The notes beneath the pieces were generated by a model. It had not been told where the DNA came from. It made no database searches and saw only the letters and a program-made list of their open reading frames with translations. Shown in pieces: positions 3,301-44,648 of a DNA stretch of 50,208 nt (position 1 is its first letter; each line of letters begins with the position of its first letter). Position numbers and translations under genes: made by a program. The stretch covers positions 1 to 50,208 of the forward strand of contig CANQRP010000003.1 of assembly GCA_947626305.1 (NCBI GenBank). Reading direction: 5' to 3'. The stretch comes from an uncultured Clostridia bacterium. GTDB lineage: Bacteria > Bacillota > Clostridia > Christensenellales > Borkfalkiaceae.

Positions 3301-3522
3301 ATGTCCAAAGACGACGTGATAGAGGCAGAGGGCAGAGTGATCGAGGCGCTCCCGAACGCAACGTTCAAGGTGCAGCTCTCCAACGGTCATATCATTACCG
3401 CCTACATCTCGGGCAAGCTGAGAATGAACTATATCCGCATTATCGAAGGGGACGGGGTAAAGCTCGAAATGAGCCCTTACGACCTCACGAAGGGGCGGAT
3501 CACGTGGAGAAGCAAGAACTGA
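3301..3522 (+). CDS. infA: Translation initiation factor IF-1
   Basis: Small OB-fold initiation factor that occupies the ribosomal A site, 73 residues, normal length. Recognisable segments are [20 protein letters not shown] and the C-terminal [21 protein letters not shown] precedes the ATG. In most relatives rpmJ follows within a few tens of bases; here the stop codon is followed immediately by a structured repeat about 335 bases long that pushes rpmJ away. Confidence 0.98.
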
Positions 3523-3858
3523 TTTCGCACAATTCTTTTCCTTGTGCTATGCGCAAATCGCTTTAATTGTCATTTCGAGCGAAGCACGAAGCGCGGAGTC
3601 GAGAAATCTCACTTCGAAAATAATTGTGCGAGGAAACTTGCTTTTGCGGGAAACAAAGTCGTCCTCTTGTTCGCTTGCTCGGACAAGAAGCCGAAAGGGT
3701 TCGGCAAATTGGGTGGAGCGGCGCATTTCTGCTCAACAGCCCAGTGGGCTGTGAGCGCGCCGCGACAGGAGCGTTGGCAAACGCAACGGGCTTTGCGGCG
3801 GTACCTGCCGCCCAAAGCGCTTATGGAAAATGACGATTTTCCAACGCGCAGTGATTTA
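3523..3858 (+). repeat. Dispersed structured repeat, copy A
   Basis: This stretch has no credible gene. It begins directly after the infA stop. A first stem is formed by CGCACAATT (3526-3534) and AATTGTGCG (3622-3630), followed by GAGGAAAC-like bases. Its loop carries a nested palindromic repeat (3569-3612). A second hairpin is GCCGAA-AGGG-TTCGGC (3690-3705), flanked by CAAGAA and AAATTG. The right end is the palindrome GGAAAATGACGATTTTCC (3825-3842) flanked by GCGC. The same order of parts recurs at 29478, at 44424 and, reversed, at 31861-32004. It is probably a non-autonomous mobile or REP-like element; no transposase is near. Confidence 0.8.
3569..3612 (+). repeat. Nested GTCATTTCGAG palindromic repeat
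   Basis: Arms GTCATTTCGAGC and GTCGAGAAATCTCAC can pair through ATTTC/GAAAT. The element at 31800-31848 has the same layout but with ACCCT/AGGGT arms, so the pairing is kept while the bases change. Repeats of this general look are widespread in bacterial intergenic DNA (recalled, not searched). It sits in the loop of the larger copy A hairpin. Confidence 0.65.
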
Positions 3859-11248: not shown

Positions 11249-14200
11249 TTACTTCTTCCACTCTCTCCACTCGTTGGGATAGTAGTAGCGCAGCAGGATC
11301 GCCGCCTGCGTGGGATCGGAAAAGTCGCGCGAATCGATGCCTCTGCCCGCGCCGCCGCGGTTTGTGGCAAAGAAGGCGCATTCTGCATCGAACGTCGCGG
11401 TTTTCAGAGAGGAATCGGCAAAAGCGTTCACGCCGATCCACTTCACCTTTTTGGGAATGTTGACGCTCCGGATGTTTTGGAACTTGTAGAAAGTGTTGGG
11501 CGAGATCGTCACGGTCGAGGTTTTCAGCGTGACGGCGCCGTCGTTATACTTTGCGATCTCCTCGTCGTTTGCGGCGATCAGATGATTGTCGATATAGAGC
11601 AAGCCGTTTTTCCAGTTTTTGGGATCCTTATAGTAAGCGGTCCCCTTAAAGGCGTCTTCGCCGATGTAGGTCAACGTGTCGGGCAGCTTGATATATTCAA
11701 GACTTGCGCAATCTTCAAAGGCATGCGCGCCGATCGACGTGATGCTCGAACCGGAAAGATCGACGCTCGTGATCTCGGTGTTGCGGTAGGTCCCCGCGGG
11801 GATCGCCGTCACGCTCGCGGCGTTCTCGGCGGTGAGGTTGCCGCGCTGCCCCGAAATGGTGAAGGCAGATGCGTAGTGGAGGGGACTTGCATAGTCGTTT
11901 TCGAAGACGATGCCGAGCCACTGCTTCGTATCCCCTTTGAATTCCGCGGTCGTAAGCGCCGTGCAGCCGAGGAAGGCGTCCGCGTCGAAGGTCTTCACGC
12001 TTGCGGGAATGATAACTCCCGTGACCTTCGTGCAGTCTCCGAACGCTCCCGCGCCGACGGTAACGGTCCCCGATGCGATCTCGAAGGTGCCCTCATAGTC
12101 GGGATACACCCGGATGAGATGCTTTTGGAGATAGAGCGCGTGATTCGCCACATCCCAATTGTTGCGGTCGTTGTAGAGCCCCGTACCGGTGAAGGCTTCG
12201 TTTTCGATCTTCACGTCTTCGGCAAGGTCGATTTTGTTGAGCGCGCTGCAATTGAAGAAGACTTGGGTGTCGATCAGCTTCACGGTCAAAGGCAAATTGA
12301 CGGAAGCAAGTTTTTTGCAATTGGAGAAGGTGTTGCGCTCGAGCGTCGTAAGCTCGGAGTTTCCGAGGAACTTGACTTCTTTGAGGTTGTCGCAATCGCT
12401 GAAGGCGTACATGCCGATCGTCTTGACGCTATCCGGGATCTCTACCGACTCGATGAAGTCGTTGTTCTGGAAGGCGTACCGAGAAATGCCGGTCACGGGA
12501 TACCCTTTGTAATTGGCGGGGATCACGATGTGCTTCGACTTGTTCACGCGCGCGTCGTCCTGTACGAAATAGGAAGTCGTAGTTCCGGTCGCAGGTTTCT
12601 GCGTGACGGCGTCGTAATAGATCAATCCGTCATATTTGCAGATGCTGCAGAGGTTGCTCTCCGTAAAGTCATGCTCGCCGGAAGCGGTTTCTCCGCAGTC
12701 ACCGCGATTGCACGTTGCTTTGTGCGTGGTTTCGGTTTGCTCGCTGAGTACCCAGCTGTGCCCGAGCGCGGGCTGGGTGATCTGTTCGATGTGATAGCCG
12801 CATTTCGAACAGGTCTTCACAATGCCGGCGGGAACGGTACAAGTCGCTTCGCTTGCCTCCGTGCCGACCAGGGTGCATTCCTCTTCCAAGGAGTAGCCGC
12901 AGCCGTTCTCACAGACCTGGATGTGGCGACCGTCGTTGGTGGGCTGCACGGGACCCATTTTGTGGTTGAGTTTTTCCACGTCGGTAACGCCGATGGAGTA
13001 GGTGCAAACGGTGCATTTCTGTCCCTTTCTGCCCGCGGCGTTGCAGGTGGGAGCCTGCGCAACGCTCTTCATCGTGCAATTTTGCTCTTCGCGGAATTGG
13101 CAGCGGGTGCATTCGCGGTAGTGCTTGCCCGCGTTGTCCGAGATCCAGGTGTTGATCTCCGTGCCGAAGTCATGCCCGAGCTTGGAGTAGGTCTCGCGCG
13201 CGGATCGGGTGCAGGTCTTGCACCGTCTGAGCACATAGCCGCCCGTCGTGCAGGTAGCCTTTTCTTCGGAGGCGACTTCCATGTTGCACGGCTTCGAATC
13301 TTTTGCAAGGCAAACGGTGCAGGTGCGGTAGTGGGTCTGTCCGTCGAGAGATTGCGCCCACGCGCGGCTCCATACATGTTCGCCGAGCGTATCGGATCGG
13401 TCGTCGATCGAGTCTCCGCCGCACACGCTGCACCGATATTCGGTATAGCCGTATGTCTGGCAGGTCGCCTTTTGGGTCTTCGTCACTTCGCGAGAGCAGG
13501 CTACGGGTTCCTCCGAAAATTCGCAACCTCCACGGGTGCAGGTGCGGTAGTGGGTGTTGCTCTCCTTGTTGAAGTAATAGCCGCTCAACTTGTGCCCGAG
13601 CGCCACGCCTTCGTCGTGTTCATAGACGTGCGCGCACACCGAACAGGTATGGATGTGCCTTGCGGGGGTGGTGCAGGTCGCGGGCGTCGTCTGCGTGTTG
13701 TAGGTGCAGCTCTGCCGATCGGTCGAGGAGCACCGCGTGCACTTCATAACGTGGGTGGAATCGTCGATCGAAATGGGTTGCGCGTCGTCGAGCACCCAAT
13801 TGTGCCCGAGCGCTCTCTGCCCCTCTTCCCGGATCTGATAGTGGCACACCGTGCAGGTCCTTGTGGTGTAGCCCGCGTCGGTGCAGGTGGGGGGAGTGGG
13901 CGTTCCCGCGTCGTAAGAGCAGTTCACGGTATCCCGATGGTTTTTATCGCGGGTGCAATAGCGGTAGTGGGTGCCGTTTTCGCCCATGATCCAAACGCTG
14001 CCGTTGTAGTCGTGACCGAGCGCTTCCTGCACGTCGAGATGCTGCACGCCGCCGCAAGTCCGGCAGGTATACACGGTATAGCCGCCCGTCAGGCAGGTCG
14101 CGGCGATCGTCTCGCTCACTTTGAGGTCGCACTCCGTGATCACTTCTCTTTCGTCGCCTCCGTCGCAATTGGGGCGCATGCACACCTTTTTGTGCGTCTG

Positions 14201-16027
14201 CGTGCCGGGGATCAGCTCTTCGCGACCGTAGTCATGCCCGAGCGGCGCACCCGTCGTCTCGGTGTATCGGTTGGTGCAGTGGGGGCAGGTGAAGGTCGTC
14301 GTCCCCGCGGTGAGGCAGGTGGAGTTGACCGTCGACGCCTCAAATGCGCAGGGCTGCTTTTCGCTGTACGCCTTCGAGCCCACCTTCGCCTCGCAGTTTG
14401 CGCGGGTGCAGGAATGCTCGTGATAGTAGACCGTCTTGCCGTTTTCCACTACTTGGGTCGCCGTCCACGGACCCCACTGATGTCCGAGCGCCGCCACATC
14501 GCCCACATCCTTGGAATAGAGGCAGGTCTCGCACACTTCGGTCACGTCCGCGGGCGTGGAACAAGTGGGTACCCCGCTGACCCGCTTCATCGTGCAGTCG
14601 CTGTAATCCTTTTTGCCGCACGTCTGGCAGGTGCGGTAGTGGCGGGAGCGCTGGGTAAATTCGTTGTCGTGCGTGTAGGTCGCGGACCAGTCGTGGGAGA
14701 GCATGGGGATCTCCACCTCGTAGCTGCCGCGGCAGGTGTCGCAGGTGTATGTCGTCTTTCCGGCTGCGGTGCAGGTCGCATTTTCGGTGACGGGGGTGTA
14801 TTCGCACTGCACTTTGTCTTCGTTCCCGCACACGTCGCACACCCGCTTATGGAATCTTTCCCCGCTCACTTTCTGCCAAGCGCCGTAGGAGTGCAGCCCG
14901 AATTCCTCGGTCTCCGTGGTGTAGCTGTACGTGCAGTATTTGCAGGTATACGTCGTCTTGCCCTTCGTCTTACAGTCGGGCGCGGTGCTCGAAGCGTCGT
15001 ATTCGCAGCTCTTCGTCTCGCGGGCGTCGCAGTGGAGGCAGGTGTGATAGTGCGAACCTTGAGAGGTTTCGTCCATCGTCCAACTGTCGGGGTAGGTATG
15101 TCCCGTTGCGCTCTGCGTCTCGGGATCGAATGTCTGATAGCTGCCCTCGCAGATCGGGCAGATGTGGGTGGTGTATCCGTTCTGCGTGCAGGTCGCCTTC
15201 GTCTCCACTTCGGTGAGGAATTCGCACTGCGCTTCGTTGTGCTCTTCGCATACCGCACAGTCCTGATAGTGCTTGTGCTCCTCTTCATCGAATTTCCATA
15301 CCGACCAGTTGTGCCCGCTCGTCAGCACTTCGTTTTTCTGCACTTTGAGGTGACAGTCGTCGCATTCGTACACGTCGTAACCGTTATCGGTGCAGGTGGG
15401 CAGCACTTGTTCCTTGAAGGTGGGCTCGCACGGTGCGTCCTGCTCTTCTTTGCAGTTCGTCCGCGTGCAGTAACGCACATGGAGCCCCGTGCCCTCCACG
15501 GGCTGCCACGCGCCCCACGTGTGCGTCAGGGGCGCTACGATGTCGTCTTTGAAGCTGCCCGCGCAAACGGAGCAGGTCTTCAAAGTAAAGCCGCTTTCGG
15601 TGCAGGTGGGGTCGGTCTTCACTCCCTCGTCGAACGAGCAAGCCTCGCTCGTGGTGTGGGTGCTGTCCCGCTTGCAGACGCCGATGTGCGTGTGGGTCGC
15701 TTCGTCGAAGGTCCACACCCAATCATGCCCGAGTTTCTCTGTCTCGTTGTCGGTGTAGCGGTATCCGCAGGCGGTGCAGCCGTAGGTCGTCACGCCGCCC
15801 TCGGTGCAGGTCGCGGTCGTCTCCGCGGAGACGAGGAAGTCCTTGCATTCGCCCGTCTCCACATGGGAGCTGTCGAGCTTGCAAGTGCGGGTATGCCCGC
15901 CGTTGCCGTCGGAGACCCACGCGCCCCAATCGTGCGTGTGCGTGTGAGCTTCTTCGCAGGCGGCAAATCCCAACACGCCGCACAGCGTTGTCAAAAGAAC
16001 CAAACAGACGGTTAAAAGTTTTTTCAT
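11249..16027 (-). CDS. Giant lipoprotein: 15 Cys-rich repeats plus BspA-like LRRs
   Basis: A 1592-residue surface protein. The start at 16027 gives a signal peptide (MKKLLTVCLVLLTTLCGVLG) with a lipobox-like FAAC, and TAGGAGAG precedes it. Residues ~27-1130 hold 15 modules of roughly 70-75 residues. Each has a W/H/Y-rich start (HYRTC type), a Cys near the middle, ATCT-GY-T-Y-C-x-x-C and a closing LGHxW. The part after about 1150 has BspA/LRR_5-type repeats (e.g. VKTIGMYAFSDCDNLKEVKF), which in other bacteria mediate adhesion. It probably forms a stalk and binding head on the cell surface. The Cys/His pattern may bind metal or form disulfides; this cannot be decided here. No partner genes lie near; it has its own promoter and terminator. 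Confidence 0.85.
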   Translation of the reverse strand: MKKLLTVCLVLLTTLCGVLGFAACEEAHTHTHDWGAWVSDGNGGHTRTCKLDSSHVETGECKDFLVSAETTATCTEGGVTTYGCTACGYRYTDNETEKLGHDWVWTFDEATHTHIGVCKRDSTHTTSEACSFDEGVKTDPTCTESGFTLKTCSVCAGSFKDDIVAPLTHTWGAWQPVEGTGLHVRYCTRTNCKEEQDAPCEPTFKEQVLPTCTDNGYDVYECDDCHLKVQKNEVLTSGHNWSVWKFDEEEHKHYQDCAVCEEHNEAQCEFLTEVETKATCTQNGYTTHICPICEGSYQTFDPETQSATGHTYPDSWTMDETSQGSHYHTCLHCDARETKSCEYDASSTAPDCKTKGKTTYTCKYCTYSYTTETEEFGLHSYGAWQKVSGERFHKRVCDVCGNEDKVQCEYTPVTENATCTAAGKTTYTCDTCRGSYEVEIPMLSHDWSATYTHDNEFTQRSRHYRTCQTCGKKDYSDCTMKRVSGVPTCSTPADVTEVCETCLYSKDVGDVAALGHQWGPWTATQVVENGKTVYYHEHSCTRANCEAKVGSKAYSEKQPCAFEASTVNSTCLTAGTTTFTCPHCTNRYTETTGAPLGHDYGREELIPGTQTHKKVCMRPNCDGGDEREVITECDLKVSETIAATCLTGGYTVYTCRTCGGVQHLDVQEALGHDYNGSVWIMGENGTHYRYCTRDKNHRDTVNCSYDAGTPTPPTCTDAGYTTRTCTVCHYQIREEGQRALGHNWVLDDAQPISIDDSTHVMKCTRCSSTDRQSCTYNTQTTPATCTTPARHIHTCSVCAHVYEHDEGVALGHKLSGYYFNKESNTHYRTCTRGGCEFSEEPVACSREVTKTQKATCQTYGYTEYRCSVCGGDSIDDRSDTLGEHVWSRAWAQSLDGQTHYRTCTVCLAKDSKPCNMEVASEEKATCTTGGYVLRRCKTCTRSARETYSKLGHDFGTEINTWISDNAGKHYRECTRCQFREEQNCTMKSVAQAPTCNAAGRKGQKCTVCTYSIGVTDVEKLNHKMGPVQPTNDGRHIQVCENGCGYSLEEECTLVGTEASEATCTVPAGIVKTCSKCGYHIEQITQPALGHSWVLSEQTETTHKATCNRGDCGETASGEHDFTESNLCSICKYDGLIYYDAVTQKPATGTTTSYFVQDDARVNKSKHIVIPANYKGYPVTGISRYAFQNNDFIESVEIPDSVKTIGMYAFSDCDNLKEVKFLGNSELTTLERNTFSNCKKLASVNLPLTVKLIDTQVFFNCSALNKIDLAEDVKIENEAFTGTGLYNDRNNWDVANHALYLQKHLIRVYPDYEGTFEIASGTVTVGAGAFGDCTKVTGVIIPASVKTFDADAFLGCTALTTAEFKGDTKQWLGIVFENDYASPLHYASAFTISGQRGNLTAENAASVTAIPAGTYRNTEITSVDLSGSSITSIGAHAFEDCASLEYIKLPDTLTYIGEDAFKGTAYYKDPKNWKNGLLYIDNHLIAANDEEIAKYNDGAVTLKTSTVTISPNTFYKFQNIRSVNIPKKVKWIGVNAFADSSLKTATFDAECAFFATNRGGAGRGIDSRDFSDPTQAAILLRYYYPNEWREWKK

Positions 16028-16078
16028 AAACTCTCCTAAAAACTGTCGAATTTGCAAAAATAATGACACTGCCATAAG

Positions 16079-28432: not shown

Positions 28433-29476
28433 ATGGCATTCATGGACAAGCTCAAAGAGATCGGCAGAAAAATTACCGAGAGCGGCACGATCGTGGAAGA
28501 GATCAAGACCAAAGCAAAAGAACTCAACAAGAAAATCGTCTTGTGCGAAGGCGAAGATAAACGGGTCGTCGAAGCGGCGTCCGTCTGCACGCAGGAGCGG
28601 TTGGCTCGCATCGTTCTGCTCGGCAATGAGGAGGAGATCAAAAAGAACAACGAGGGCGTGGACCTCAGCTGCATCGAGTTCATCGACCCCGCAACTTCTC
28701 CCAAACTCAAAGACTATGCCGCCCTGCTTTACGAATTGAGAAAGGCGAAGGGCATGACGGAAGAACAGGCATTGGAGCAGGCGAAAGATCCCACCTTCTT
28801 CGGCGCGCTCATGCTCAAAAACGGCGACGTGGACGGGCTTGTCTCCGGCGCTTGTCATTCCACCGCAAACACGCTGCGCCCCGGGCTTCAGATCATCAAG
28901 ACCGCACCCGGCGTCTCCTCCGTCTCGAGCTTCAACCTCATGGTGGCGCCTGCAACGGGGAATAAATATGTGCCCGATGGGAAGATCGTGTTTGCCGATT
29001 GCGGGCTCAACCCCACTTACACCGCGGAAGGGCTTGCCGACTGCGCCATCGCCACGGCAAAGAGCGCAAAGGAGATCGCGGGGCTCGAACCGAGAGTTGC
29101 TATGCTCTCCTTCTCCACCATGGGCAGCGCGAAGCACGACCTCGTGACCCTCGTGCAGGAGGCGACGCGCATCGCAAAAGAAAAGGCGCCCGACCTCAAG
29201 ATCGAGGGCGAACTGCAATTCGACGCGGCGATCGTCCCCGAAGTTGCCGCCCTCAAAGCGCCGCAGAGTGAAGTTGCGGGGCATGCGAACGTATTCATCT
29301 TCCCCGATCTTCAAGCGGGGAACATCGGCTACAAGATCGCGGAACGGCTCGGCGGATTCCAGGCGATCGGTCCCATCTGCCAAGGCTTTGCAAAACCGCT
29401 CAACGACCTTTCCCGCGGCTGCAAGGCGGACGACATCGTCTGCGCGGTCGCGATCACGGCGCTGCAAACAAGATAA
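28433..29476 (+). CDS. pta: Phosphate acetyltransferase
   Basis: Converts acetyl-CoA and phosphate into acetyl phosphate, the first step of acetate formation with ATP gain. 347 residues, the short form with only the catalytic domain. Family segments are IVLCEGEDKRVVEAA, VDGLVSGACHSTANTLRPGL and the C-terminal GNIGYKIAERLGGFQAIGPI. ACGGAG lies before the ATG at 28433, and the sequence aligns with the family from that point. ackA follows after 278 bases that are occupied by a dispersed repeat, so the usual close pta-ackA pair has been spread apart. Confidence 0.96.
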   Translation: MAFMDKLKEIGRKITESGTIVEEIKTKAKELNKKIVLCEGEDKRVVEAASVCTQERLARIVLLGNEEEIKKNNEGVDLSCIEFIDPATSPKLKDYAALLYELRKAKGMTEEQALEQAKDPTFFGALMLKNGDVDGLVSGACHSTANTLRPGLQIIKTAPGVSSVSSFNLMVAPATGNKYVPDGKIVFADCGLNPTYTAEGLADCAIATAKSAKEIAGLEPRVAMLSFSTMGSAKHDLVTLVQEATRIAKEKAPDLKIEGELQFDAAIVPEVAALKAPQSEVAGHANVFIFPDLQAGNIGYKIAERLGGFQAIGPICQGFAKPLNDLSRGCKADDIVCAVAITALQTR

Positions 29477-29477
29477 A

Positions 29478-29660
29478 GGTTCACACGATTTCTTGCTTTG
29501 CAATAAATCGTCGTGAGCGGATAGGCTTTCGTGCCTTTCAGAACTCTTAGCCGCGCAGACTTTCTGTTTTATCGGACAAGAAGGCAAAAGGTTTTGCCAA
29601 ATTGGGTCGCCCTACTTCGCCTTTGGCTCGTGCCGCGCTTAGAGAAACAGAATAGCGCGC
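29478..29660 (+). repeat. Dispersed structured repeat, copy C
   Basis: It begins two bases after the pta stop. First hairpin: TTCACACGATTTCTTGC / GCAATAAATCGTCGTGA-like arms (29480-29517) with the apical TTGCTTTGCAA. Second hairpin: GGCAAAA-GG-TTTTGCC (29583-29598) flanked by CAAGAA and AAATTG, then GGGTCGCCCTACTTCGCC. The right end, GCGCTTAGAG to AGCGCGC (29635-29660), resembles the GCGC-bounded end of copy A. The rest of the gap up to ackA (29661-29754) holds nothing recognised except the ackA ribosome-binding site GAGGT. Confidence 0.75.
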
Positions 29661-29754
29661 GGGGCGGCGGAAGTGAATTCCGCCTAAGGCAAGTCATTAG
29701 AACGAAAGAGACGTATCCCAAACAAAAAAAATCGACCTGACCATGAGGTAATCT

Positions 29755-31799: not shown

Positions 31800-31848
31800 G
31801 TCACCCTGAGCCGCCGAGCGAAGCGAGACGTGTCGAAGGGTCGCCGCA
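31800..31848 (+). repeat. GTCACCCTGAG palindromic repeat
   Basis: GTCACCCTGAGC ... GTGTCGAAGGGTCGC; ACCCT pairs with AGGGT. It has the same layout as the GTCATTTCGAG element at 3569-3612. Two shorter GTCAC fragments, at about 31747 and 31775, look like decayed or partial copies. Confidence 0.6.
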
Positions 31849-31860
31849 GTATTAAAAATA

Positions 31861-32004
31861 AGGCGAAGTAGGGCGACTCAATTTGGCAATTACTTTTGCC
31901 TTCTTGTCCTTCAAGGCGAGAAAGAGGACAATAAAAGTTAAAACGATAAGGAGGGTTTCCTCACGGAAAAAGATTTTGCAAAGCAAAAGATTTTTCGTGA
32001 ACAC
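31861..32004 (-). repeat. Dispersed structured repeat, copy B
   Basis: Read on the minus strand it starts 5 bases before the hrb-like ATG with GTTCACG. Its first hairpin pairs TCACG/CGTGA around TTTTGCTTTGCAAAA (plus coordinates 31961-32000), followed by GAGGAAACC. Its second hairpin is GGCAA-AAGTAA-TTGCC (31900-31885), flanked by CAAGAA and AAATTG, then GAGTCGCCCTACTTCGCCT. These parts match copies A and C in order and spacing class. The right-end palindrome is not recognised here. Confidence 0.75.
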
Positions 32005-42072: not shown

Positions 42073-44420
42073 AGAAACATCACATTCGCTTGGAACTCGA
42101 TAAAATTCTTGCGGCGGCATCCGCCTACGCTTCTCTCGAGGGCGGGCGGCAGGCGGTACTTGCGCTCGAACCCGTTACGGACCTCGCCGAAGCGCGCCGC
42201 ATCCTCGCGCTCACGGGGGAGGCGGTGGAACTTCTGTTCCGCCTCGGCGCGGGCAAGGTGGAGTACTTCCCCCCCCTCGGCGACAGTCTGGAACGCGCCG
42301 AAAAGCGGGCGACGCTTTCCTGCAAGGAACTCACCGACGTCGCGCTCCTGCTTCGCGCCGCGCGGGTGTGTCACAATTCGGTGCATTCCCTTGCGGATGA
42401 GACCGTCTCGGGGATGAAAGAACTCACGGGGCGGCTCGTCTACGACAAGAGGTTAGAGGAGGAGATCGGCGAGAAGATCGTGGGGGAAAACGAGGTCGCC
42501 GACCGTGCCAGCGAAGCGCTTTCCGCCATTCGCCGCGAGATCAGGCTCTTGAACGACCGCATCCGCGCCCGTCTTTCGGAGTATCTTGTGGGCGAGGAGA
42601 GCAAATATTTGCAGGACGCCGTGATCACGATGCGGGGAGACCGCTATGTCATCCCCGTCAAAGTGGAATATAAGCGGAGCGTCAAGGGCTTTATCCACGA
42701 CCGCTCCCAAACGGGGCAAACGGTGTTCGTCGAGCCGGAGGAAGTGCTCGAAATGAACAACGAGCTCCGCTCCCTCATCATCGACGAGCAGGAGGAGGTC
42801 GAGCGCATCCTGAGCGAGCTCTCCCACGCGGTCGGCGCCATGCGGGAGAGCCTCGAACGCGACGTCGCGCTTCTCTCGGAGACGGACAGCTACTATGCCC
42901 GCGCGGAGTATGCCTATCACCTGCACTGCGTCAAGCCGGAACTGAGCGGTCGCGGGGTGGTGAAGATCGTCAAAGGGCGGCATCCGCTGCTCGATCAAAA
43001 GACGGCGGTGCCCGTCTCCGTCTCGGTGGGGGAGACGCAATCCTTCCTCCTCATCAGCGGCGCGAACACGGGCGGCAAAACGGTAACACTCAAAATGTGC
43101 GGGCTCTTCTGCCTGATGGCGGCGTGCGGCATGTTCGTTCCCGCCGCCGAAGGCACCCGCCTCTCGGTGTTCGAAAACGTGTTCTGCGACGTGGGCGACA
43201 GCCAATCCATCGAGGAAAATCTGTCCACTTTCTCTTCCCATGTATTGAATTTGAAGGAGATTTGCGAGCAGGCGGGGAAGAACAGTTTTGTGCTCATCGA
43301 CGAGCCGGGCGGCGGCACCGACCCGGAGGAGGGGCAGGCGCTCGCCCGCGCGGTGCTCGTGCACCTGCTCAAAAAAGGGTGCCGCGGCATCGTCACCACC
43401 CACTATTCCGCCCTCAAAGAATTCGCCTTCGAAACGGAGGGCGTTGAGAACGGCTGTATGGAATTCGACGGCGCAAGCCTGCGTCCGCTCTTCCGCTTGA
43501 AGATCGGGCTTCCCGGTCCCAGCAACGCCCTGCTCATCTGTTCCCGCTTGGGGCTTTCCGAGGACATCATCGAGGAGGCGCGGGGGCATCTTTCGGACGG
43601 TGCGCGCGCATTCGAACACACGGTCCGCGCGGCGGAGGAGAGCAGGGTGCGCTCCGAGGCGCTCCTCTCGGAGACGGAGGAACTCAAAAAAGAGTGGGAA
43701 GTCCGTCTTTCCGCGCTCGAAAAAGAGGAGGCGCAGCTGAAAAAGGAGCGCGAAAAATTGCAACTCACCTCCCGTGCGGAGGCAAAGCGCATCGTCGCCG
43801 CCCGCACGGCGGAGGCGGAAGAGCTGCTCGCACAGATCGAGGACATCTTCAAAAAGGAATTCGTGGAGGAGGGGGATCTCATCAAGGCGAGGACCCTCAA
43901 AAACAAGATCGCCGATCTCACCCTCGAGGAGGAAGAGGAAAAGACGCGCGCCCTGCCCGTCGACCCCGCCTCGCTCAAAGAGGGGGACAGAGTATACCTC
44001 AAAAGCATGGACGCGGAGGGAACGGTGCTCTCCCTGCGCAGGGAAAAGGGAGTTGCGGAGGTCAAGTGCGGCTCCATTCAGGCGCGCGTCAGGATCTCCG
44101 ATCTCTTTTTGCCCGTTCGCAAGCGGGAGGAGGCGACGTCCGTCAAAGTGACCCGCGACCTCAAAGACCGCGCCACTCTCCCCCGCGAGTGCAACGTCAT
44201 CGGCATGACGGTAAGCGACGCGCTTGCCGAGGTGGAGGCGTTTTTGGACAGCGCGCTTCTGCAAAACATGTCCGAAGTGCGCATCGTGCACGGCATGGGC
44301 ACGGGCGCGCTGCGGAAGGCGGTGGGCGAGTATCTGCGTAAGCACAAGCGGGTGGAAAGTTTTCGTCTCGGCAAGTACGGCGAGGGCGAATCGGGCGTGA
44401 CGATCGTAATACTCAAATAA
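42069..44420 (+). CDS. mutS2: Endonuclease MutS2
   Basis: 783 residues. MutS-type core and clamp, then the ATPase with Walker A GANTGGKT near residue 335, LIDEPGGGTDPEEG (Walker B), a long coiled coil with KOW-like part, and a C-terminal Smr nuclease domain (VIGMTVSDALAEVEAFLD, VRIVHGMGTGALR). It lacks the N-terminal mismatch-recognition domain, as all MutS2 do. Roles reported for the family are suppression of recombination and splitting of collided ribosomes. It is the last gene of the uvrC-hprK-U32 run; repeat copy D begins three bases after its stop. Confidence 0.96.
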   Translation: MKKHHIRLELDKILAAASAYASLEGGRQAVLALEPVTDLAEARRILALTGEAVELLFRLGAGKVEYFPPLGDSLERAEKRATLSCKELTDVALLLRAARVCHNSVHSLADETVSGMKELTGRLVYDKRLEEEIGEKIVGENEVADRASEALSAIRREIRLLNDRIRARLSEYLVGEESKYLQDAVITMRGDRYVIPVKVEYKRSVKGFIHDRSQTGQTVFVEPEEVLEMNNELRSLIIDEQEEVERILSELSHAVGAMRESLERDVALLSETDSYYARAEYAYHLHCVKPELSGRGVVKIVKGRHPLLDQKTAVPVSVSVGETQSFLLISGANTGGKTVTLKMCGLFCLMAACGMFVPAAEGTRLSVFENVFCDVGDSQSIEENLSTFSSHVLNLKEICEQAGKNSFVLIDEPGGGTDPEEGQALARAVLVHLLKKGCRGIVTTHYSALKEFAFETEGVENGCMEFDGASLRPLFRLKIGLPGPSNALLICSRLGLSEDIIEEARGHLSDGARAFEHTVRAAEESRVRSEALLSETEELKKEWEVRLSALEKEEAQLKKEREKLQLTSRAEAKRIVAARTAEAEELLAQIEDIFKKEFVEEGDLIKARTLKNKIADLTLEEEEEKTRALPVDPASLKEGDRVYLKSMDAEGTVLSLRREKGVAEVKCGSIQARVRISDLFLPVRKREEATSVKVTRDLKDRATLPRECNVIGMTVSDALAEVEAFLDSALLQNMSEVRIVHGMGTGALRKAVGEYLRKHKRVESFRLGKYGEGESGVTIVILK

Positions 44421-44423
44421 TAG

Positions 44424-44648
44424 GTTCACGCGTTTCTTTTCTTCCTCCCCCCTTGCCCACCCCTTGAGGGGTGGGTGTCTCCGAAGGAGACGGAAGGGGT
44501 GTCGTTCGAAAAGAAACGCCGTGAGGAAACGTGCTTTCTACATCAACCGAGTCACTCTCTCATTCGCTCGGCTTGAACACTAAGCCGTAAGTGTGCGGCA
44601 AATGTTGTGCGCTTATGGAAAATGGCGATTTTCCAACGCGCAGTGATT
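44424..44648 (+). repeat. Dispersed structured repeat, copy D
   Basis: Outer stem TTCACG-CGTTTCTTTTC (44425-44441) with GAAAAGAAACG-CCGTGA (44508-44525), followed by GGAAAC-GTGCTTTC, as in copy A. The loop carries a nested CACCCCTTGAGGGGTG palindrome. The second hairpin has changed to CGGCTT/AAGCCG (about 44569-44587). The right end, 40 bases at 44609-44648, matches the end of copy A (3817-3856) with only one difference: GGAAAATGGCGATTTTCC versus GGAAAATGACGATTTTCC. Confidence 0.8.

Follow-up and report, generated by a model that had tools for sequence, protein, structure and literature searches.

A repeat behind infA, pta and mutS2

The window, as we call the whole 50,208-nucleotide stretch analysed here, is contig C3 of a 1.54-Mb draft genome (127 contigs, 74% complete) from an uncultured Clostridia bacterium. 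It carries four copies, A to D, of a structured intergenic repeat (Table 1). Copy A follows infA, copy C sits between pta and ackA, copy D follows mutS2, and copy B, on the minus strand, has its 5′ end 7 nt away from what is probably the start codon (window 32009) of a gene of opposite orientation. The names infA, pta and mutS2 had been proposed from the letters alone; NCBIfam confirms them, together with the identities of ackA, rpmF and rpmJ. That sequence-only reading also saw a common order of parts in the four stretches, and rightly so: all are present, and one covariance model recovers all four (D 129.4, A 74.6, B 55.8 and C 30.6 bits). Some of its details need correcting. Copies A, C and D were said to start 1–3 bases after the stop codons; the actual gaps are 0 nt (A, infA), 3 nt (C, pta) and 4 nt (D, mutS2). 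The GCGC-bounded right end ascribed to the same three copies is there in A and D but not in C, where GCGC seems to be part of an insert. Two hairpins per element turn out to be too few: a short P2 and an H3 bounded by GCGC must be added, and for sister genera a clear P3 as well. The third hairpin of copy C (29666–29684) is of another type, and this copy has GAGCGGAT in place of GAGGAAAC; copy D houses a palindromic insert in the apex of H1. Elsewhere in the window, at 11249–16075 on the minus strand, lies a 1608-aa open frame containing seven repeats of ~60 nt.

Table 1. Positions of the four copies and their parts in the window
Feature	Position	Strand	Details
Copy A, whole	3523..3856	+	from the base after the infA stop (3520–3522) to GTGATT
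Copy A, H1	3523..3632	+	5′ arm TTTCGCACAATTCTTTTCC 3523–3541; 3′ arm AAAATAATTGTGCGAG 3617–3632
Copy A, foreign repeat in H1 apex	3569..3609	+	GTCATTTCGAGC...GAGAAATCT
Copy A, GAGGAAAC and P2	3630..3666	+	GAGGAAAC 3630–3637; GAGGA 3630–3634, TCCTC 3662–3666; overlaps the H1 base by 3 nt
Copy A, short P3	3666..3687	+	CTTGTTCG / CGGACAAG
Copy A, H2	3690..3705	+	GCCGAA / TTCGGC; then AAATTG 3706–3711
Copy A, second foreign repeat, between H2 and H3	3713..3816	+	GTGGAGCGGCGC...CTGCCGCCCAAA
Copy A, H3	3817..3849	+	GCGCTTATGGAAAATGACGATTTTCCAACGCGC
Copy C, after pta stop (29474–29476), inside pta-ackA pair	29480..29684	+	H1 29480–29517, H2 29583–29598
Copy B	31827..32001	-	H1 32001–31960, H2 31900–31885
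Copy D, after mutS2 stop (44418–44420)	44425..44648	+	H1 44425–44525, H2 44584–44599, H3 44609–44641

A BLAST search with copy A as query against the own genome returns 59 partial matches. They group into blocks, and this block pattern tells the element apart from the two foreign repeats within the copy. Query positions 189–294, the module at 3713–3816, match other places in the genome without the rest of copy A; the module is ~105 nt long, has hairpins of its own and stands alone elsewhere in the genome. The GTCATTTCGAGC...GAGAAATCT repeat has 88 core matches in 1.24 Mb (the window and three relatives) and sometimes sits in an H1 apex.

Without inserts a unit is ~165 nt long and runs H1, GAGGAAAC, short P2, H2, AAATTG and the GCGC-bounded H3. 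Eleven of 12 strict-pattern matches measure 161–172 nt; the twelfth is no proper unit. In a complete unit the TTC... 5′ arm of H1 pairs with ...GAG, and P2, GAGGA/TCCTC in the RNAalifold consensus, lies in the spacer between GAGGAAAC and H2. The form found in sister genera is longer and has P3 clearly, which by eye is missing from many copies of the window's own genus. In the own genus the H1 base (GAG) and the 5′ side of P2 (GAGGA) share 3 nt (window 3630–3634), so that H1 and P2 may compete there; in a sister-genus unit folded as five hairpins, the two are separate and do not overlap. Among 97 units with a well-scored H1, 58 have an H1 loop longer than 45 nt, often housing foreign palindromic repeats. 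It looks as if hairpin tips were preferred landing sites for such repeats, though some of the long loops may be wrong arm assignments.

Copy number and range

Our searches relied on a covariance model of the core, built from 22 copies, which replaced regular-expression unit searches that had been too strict; helix 1 of the model R1 (three pairs) is probably spurious. The genome-wide search that the sequence-only reading had proposed finds copies well beyond the four: in the own genome 56 matches pass E <= 0.1, and 51 of these have E below or around 1e-6. Across the genus, 54 of 61 sampled genomes have matches, from 1 to at least 58 per genome, and seven show none in the covariance-model search. 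In the family sample, matches occur in 31 of 121 genomes and 4 of 18 genera. Of the 248 genomes in the order sample 14 have matches; all of these belong to the same family, and the model found none outside it; these larger samples were run with stricter filters and fewer candidates scored per genome, so weak matches may be lost. Among the matches listed, the relatives that carry a name are for the most part MAGs entitled 'uncultured Clostridia bacterium' with the label Lapin. Thirteen of at least 80 loci picked up by pattern (eleven non-Clostridial ones, L129 and L149) have no covariance-model match, and one strict pattern scan of viral contigs, run to see whether phages carry the element, gave a single match that by eye is not the element.

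Pairing and folding of the stems

Pairing in the stems was scored on an alignment of 51 distinct matches which, being fitted to the model, leans towards pairing. Partners pair in 97.3% of 924 cells, against 84.9% in shuffled alignments (0 of 500 as high) and 37–59% (maximum 58.6%) with slid partners, and the covariation score is 0.417 against 0.197 in shuffles. The number of further pair types, 26, is no higher than the 25.4 of the shuffles. On most measures, then, pairing lies above both the shuffled and the slid controls, and on those measures the covariation claimed from the four copies passes the check set for it. H1 allows a freer test, as its 5′ arm is outside the model. A score of at least 9 is reached by 87 of 123 units and by 54 of 350 swapped-arm controls; at 11 or more the figures are 36 of 123, with 30 different stems, and 6 of 350. 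Twelve sister-genus sequences, aligned without a structure model, show double changes in 27 of 38 predicted pairs (H1, P3, H2 and H3).

One sister-genus unit folds into five successive hairpins, H1, P2, P3, H2 and H3, at -104.5 kcal/mol (z -8.35). For a compact own-genus unit z is only -2.36, with H1 in its minimum-energy fold and H2 missing from it. Of 170 isolated units, 116 form H2 in their minimum-energy fold; the mean pair probability is 0.67. The opposite strands of these own-genus and sister-genus units fold about as well (z -1.94 and -8.73). We rejected wobble asymmetry as proof of RNA folding: three helices together have 75 G-U against 5 A-C pairs, and this fails once each distinct H2 is counted a single time. 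For H2 the ratio is 71 to 6 by copies and 2 to 6 by distinct hairpins, one allele contributing most of the G-U pairs. Since distinct H2 hairpins show no G-U excess, sense orientation becomes the main evidence for a role at the RNA level.

Exchange of whole hairpins

When units are anchored by sequence alone, H2 takes just 13 forms across 170 of 181 distinct units, and eight of these forms make up 165. The pta orthologues make the point at close range: the window copy and that at L326 have an unusual spacer in common, yet one has GGCAAAA/TTTTGCC as its H2 and the other GCCGTA/TGCGGC. At L179 and L169, where the flanking protein is 98% identical, H1 is nearly the same and H3 is different. The few forms of H2 and the swapping of H3 as a whole mean that cassette exchange accounts for much of the covariation. 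The covariation noted by the sequence-only reading therefore stands at the level of whole hairpins, in which pairing is kept, and is in part the product of such exchange, even between orthologues; with ready-made hairpins passing around, fewer independent compensating events are needed than that reading supposed. The pattern of exchange between copies is plain; the process behind it we infer to be gene conversion or template switching.

Placement behind stop codons

Gene neighbours were taken from calls made by a simple home-made method. The 53 matches in the window and three relatives overlap the 108 in named contigs, some contigs belonging to the same genomes, and the distinct copies number 152. 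Eighty have both neighbours in sense, 17 have both in antisense, 22 are in convergent gaps and none is in a divergent one; the remaining 33 are at a locus end, with one neighbour undefined. None of the 152 lies inside a called gene. The 30 own-genome copies, counted separately, include two divergent cases. Among 126 units with a readable upstream neighbour, that gene is antisense for 22; by eye, elements whose 5′ neighbour runs antisense often have their 5′ end adjoining its ribosome-binding site. A control repeat in the same DNA, GTCATTTCGA, gives 35 sense, 21 antisense, 19 convergent and 5 divergent placements (n=88). The palindrome CCCACCCCTTGAGGGG, often found within H1, gives 8, 1, 3 and 0 in the same order (n=13), and two further control repeats have just 3 and 5 matches.

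The distance to the stop codon was read for the first H1 of each array in the named Lapin contigs. From the 108 matches, 28 with an H1 score below 8, ten near a locus edge and six tandem followers were left out; the 64 rows hold 61 distinct H1 starts, three appearing twice, and a few H1 assignments are doubtful. Of these starts, 39 follow a sense stop codon by no more than 15 nt, another 15 follow one at a greater distance of up to 150 nt, and 7 have no stop of this kind. The distances measured in the window and three relatives are 1, 1, 1, 1, 4, 4, 5, 5, 6, 7, 8, 17, 924 and 1027 nt, so 11 of 14 lie at 1–8 nt. The stop codons at distances up to 12 nt are mixed (23 TAA, 11 TGA and 6 TAG), and no single DNA motif of the stop can thus explain the adjacency. 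It may simply have been forced where the original gap was only 10–40 nt.

Filled gaps, short gaps and tandem arrays

The model finds units between infA and rpmJ at 7 of 30 loci, and none at the other 23; a further locus, L243, has two by eye. This gap is readable in 28 loci, and in 11 of these stop and start are only ~40–85 nt apart. For pta and ackA the model likewise finds units in the gap at 7 of 30 loci; at 20 the ackA start is by eye within ~60 nt of the pta stop, and the remaining three have other repeats or a partial unit. Further gene pairs also come with both filled and short gaps. Units inside infA-rpmJ, pta-ackA and other pairs mean that the element enters operons. Close relatives often have the same positions filled, with different types of unit; insertion thus often predates the species, and the content turns over.

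Units also occur in tandem. The own genome has six pairs of neighbours with core starts 162–169 nt apart, on C5, C19, C31, C52 (two) and C60, and genome G006 has three units in its infA-rpmJ gap. In three relatives, the unit pairs at 0.98 identity or above are tandem neighbours. Thirty own-genome copies have a mean identity of 0.76, and 0 of their 435 pairs reach 0.95, so recent transposition is not visible among them. At L220 (115–581), three units follow infA; by eye, one unit and the next differ in H1 by a compensated change, and in the third unit the H1 stem combines one arm of each type.

Candidate movers and known families

We looked for an enzyme whose presence follows the element. The Y1 transposase (PF01797) occurs in 14 of the 61 genus genomes, but not in G005 (54 matches, 99% complete), in G006 and G024 (at least 58 each) or in the own genome (74% complete), while G038 and G049 have a Y1 gene and no element match. 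Reverse transcriptase (PF00078), as expected for a group II intron or other retroelement, occurs in 10 of the 61, the IS110 transposase (PF01548) in 3 and the TnpB-type nuclease (PF07282), as expected for an IS200/IS605 or IscB/TnpB-associated RNA, in 1. Four of the five most element-rich genomes (G006, G024, G052, the own genome and G005) lack all four enzyme families, and G024 has the reverse transcriptase. None of the four tracks the element, and none is supported as its mover. Nor did we find a target-site duplication, the filled and empty sites compared having come from different, too-diverged species. In a comparison with MITEs, the unit ends are by eye 5′ TTCACG and 3′ GTGATT, with at best 4–5 complementary bases, and the autonomous partner was sought among the four enzyme families above.

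The element had not been matched to a named family, and it has no match in Rfam 15 at gathering score. At that score the window matches just SRP, tRNA and 6S, all away from the element; a 701-nt tandem array has no match at E <= 10, and in 12 sister-genus loci nothing reaches gathering score. No HEARO is among the Rfam matches for the window, the array or the sister-genus loci. At L353 (304–393, minus strand) a TPP riboswitch-like match falls just under gathering score (E 1.7e-7). Copies A and D contain no sense-strand intrinsic terminator (GC-rich hairpin and T run), and their terminator-like sites are at shuffle level. One array has four such sites against 1.7 expected, two of them weak sense-strand H3 matches. 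The scans of these two copies and that array give H1 no support as a terminator, and we dropped the idea. No promoter-like site turned up in copies A and D; the array has three, all on the antisense strand.

Among described repeats, BOX of Streptococcus pneumoniae, a small modular intergenic repeat with RNA-level stem-loops that is over-represented between convergent genes (PMC3049150), comes nearest in its modularity and in favouring convergent gaps. The present element is likewise modular, with a variable number of internal modules, and nests with other repeats. BOX is set apart by its A-B-C arrangement, in which the inner module is repeated, and by a degree of similarity in terminal repeats to an insertion sequence (PMC3049150). 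Here, in a comparison made by description, whole units stand in tandem as a chain of separate hairpins whose 5′ end abuts stop codons in sense.

REP and BIME elements (see also PMC2817692 and PMC3116915) are, like this one, palindromic intergenic repeats in high copy, and some REP lie within 15 nt of a stop codon (PMC12306157). In Escherichia coli, REP hairpins no more than 15 nt from the stop are linked to ribosome stalling and lower expression, according to an earlier study cited in PMC12306157; H1 usually begins nearer the stop than that. REP are described as single palindromes of 20–40 nt (PMC3733652) and tied to Y1-type transposases (PMC2817692), whereas the units here are ~165 nt long and no Y1 (RAYT-type) gene tracks them among the 61 genus genomes. 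RUP and SPRITE of S. pneumoniae are also short interspersed repeats, SPRITE near gene ends; SPRITE differs in its resemblance to a terminator with a U-rich tract, and RUP has terminal inverted repeats (PMC3049150). ERIC and Correia elements, compared by description, are transcribed with their neighbours and can alter mRNA decay; Correia differs in its 26-bp inverted repeats (PMC3049150). We found no report of this repeat in the open-access literature. As no named family agrees with it on all tested features, we class it among the interspersed structured repeats.

Interpretation

Our best reading is of a new REP/BOX-like interspersed element that acts, if at all, as a hairpin next to the stop codon. 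Put in full, and with a probability of about 0.6, it would be a high-copy, non-coding chain of hairpins behind stop codons, found in a single family within the genomes sampled, that exchanges its hairpins as cassettes and has a REP-like effect on the upstream message. It would have entered the space that follows stop codons, in most cases oriented with transcription, and multiplied locally into tandem arrays at ~162–169 nt per unit. Hairpins would pass between copies as cassettes, through gene conversion or template switching, so that stems change and pairing stays. In the mRNA, H1 would be close enough to the stop for a ribosome terminating there to meet it and, by analogy with REP, might act on the upstream message through termination, recycling or 3′ decay. 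Because the element lies inside operons, it would be no classical terminator. It is probably a selfish repeat that the genomes tolerate behind stops and in some places retain. The sequence-only reading had called it a structured mobile or RNA-level 3′ element: dispersed, structured and mostly 3′ of genes it is, and mobility as an event stays putative, neither a responsible enzyme among the four families nor a target-site duplication having turned up.

A purely selfish repeat acting at the DNA level would settle in any tolerated gap; its orientation and stop adjacency would then come only from selection that spares promoters and ribosome-binding sites, and its pairing from the copying of DNA palindromes, with no RNA function involved. 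We consider this possible, if rather unlikely. It agrees with the absence of the 152 distinct copies from genes and divergent gaps, with the discrete palindromic alleles, with two strands that fold about equally well and with the seven genus genomes free of matches, and the GTCATTTCGA control, too, leans away from divergent gaps (19 convergent to 5 divergent). It does less well with the sense bias, which at 80 to 17 exceeds the 35 to 21 of that control and is not explained by promoter avoidance, and copying of palindromes would not account for the conserved GAGGAAAC and AAATTG. Position and sense orientation are also what one would expect of a domesticated cis-acting RNA (a terminator, processing site or 3′ stabiliser) on which the preceding genes depend, and the same gene ends, pta for example, are filled in several species. 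Against such a need, ackA follows pta without the element at 20 of 30 loci, 23 of 30 infA loci have no unit and 7 of 61 genus genomes no match, while the sites lie inside operons and the terminator-like sites of A and D are at shuffle level; we think this account improbable.

The ordered multi-hairpin fold of the sister-genus unit and the tandem copies could bring to mind a dispersed small-RNA gene acting in trans. The idea sits poorly with sense placement behind unrelated genes and with the fast turnover of hairpins, and with no promoter-like site found in A and D and only antisense ones in the array it strikes us as very improbable. A bolder proposal, which we see as a long shot, keeps the cassette exchange of hairpins and makes the element a class of mobile hairpin chains. 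Its insertion would be linked to the ends of genes and to the direction in which they are transcribed, for instance via the terminating ribosome or transcript, and would be carried out by an enzyme outside the known hairpin- or RNA-using transposases.

A repeat of an uncultured family

Small interspersed repeats shape bacterial genomes. Many of the well-described ones are known from a handful of cultured groups, and several have an associated transposase. Here an uncultured family carries a structured repeat that prefers the sense space behind stop codons and changes its hairpins as blocks. With 0 to at least 58 matches per genome across 61 genomes of one genus, it becomes testable what moves such repeats and whether a hairpin next to a stop codon alters expression genome-wide.
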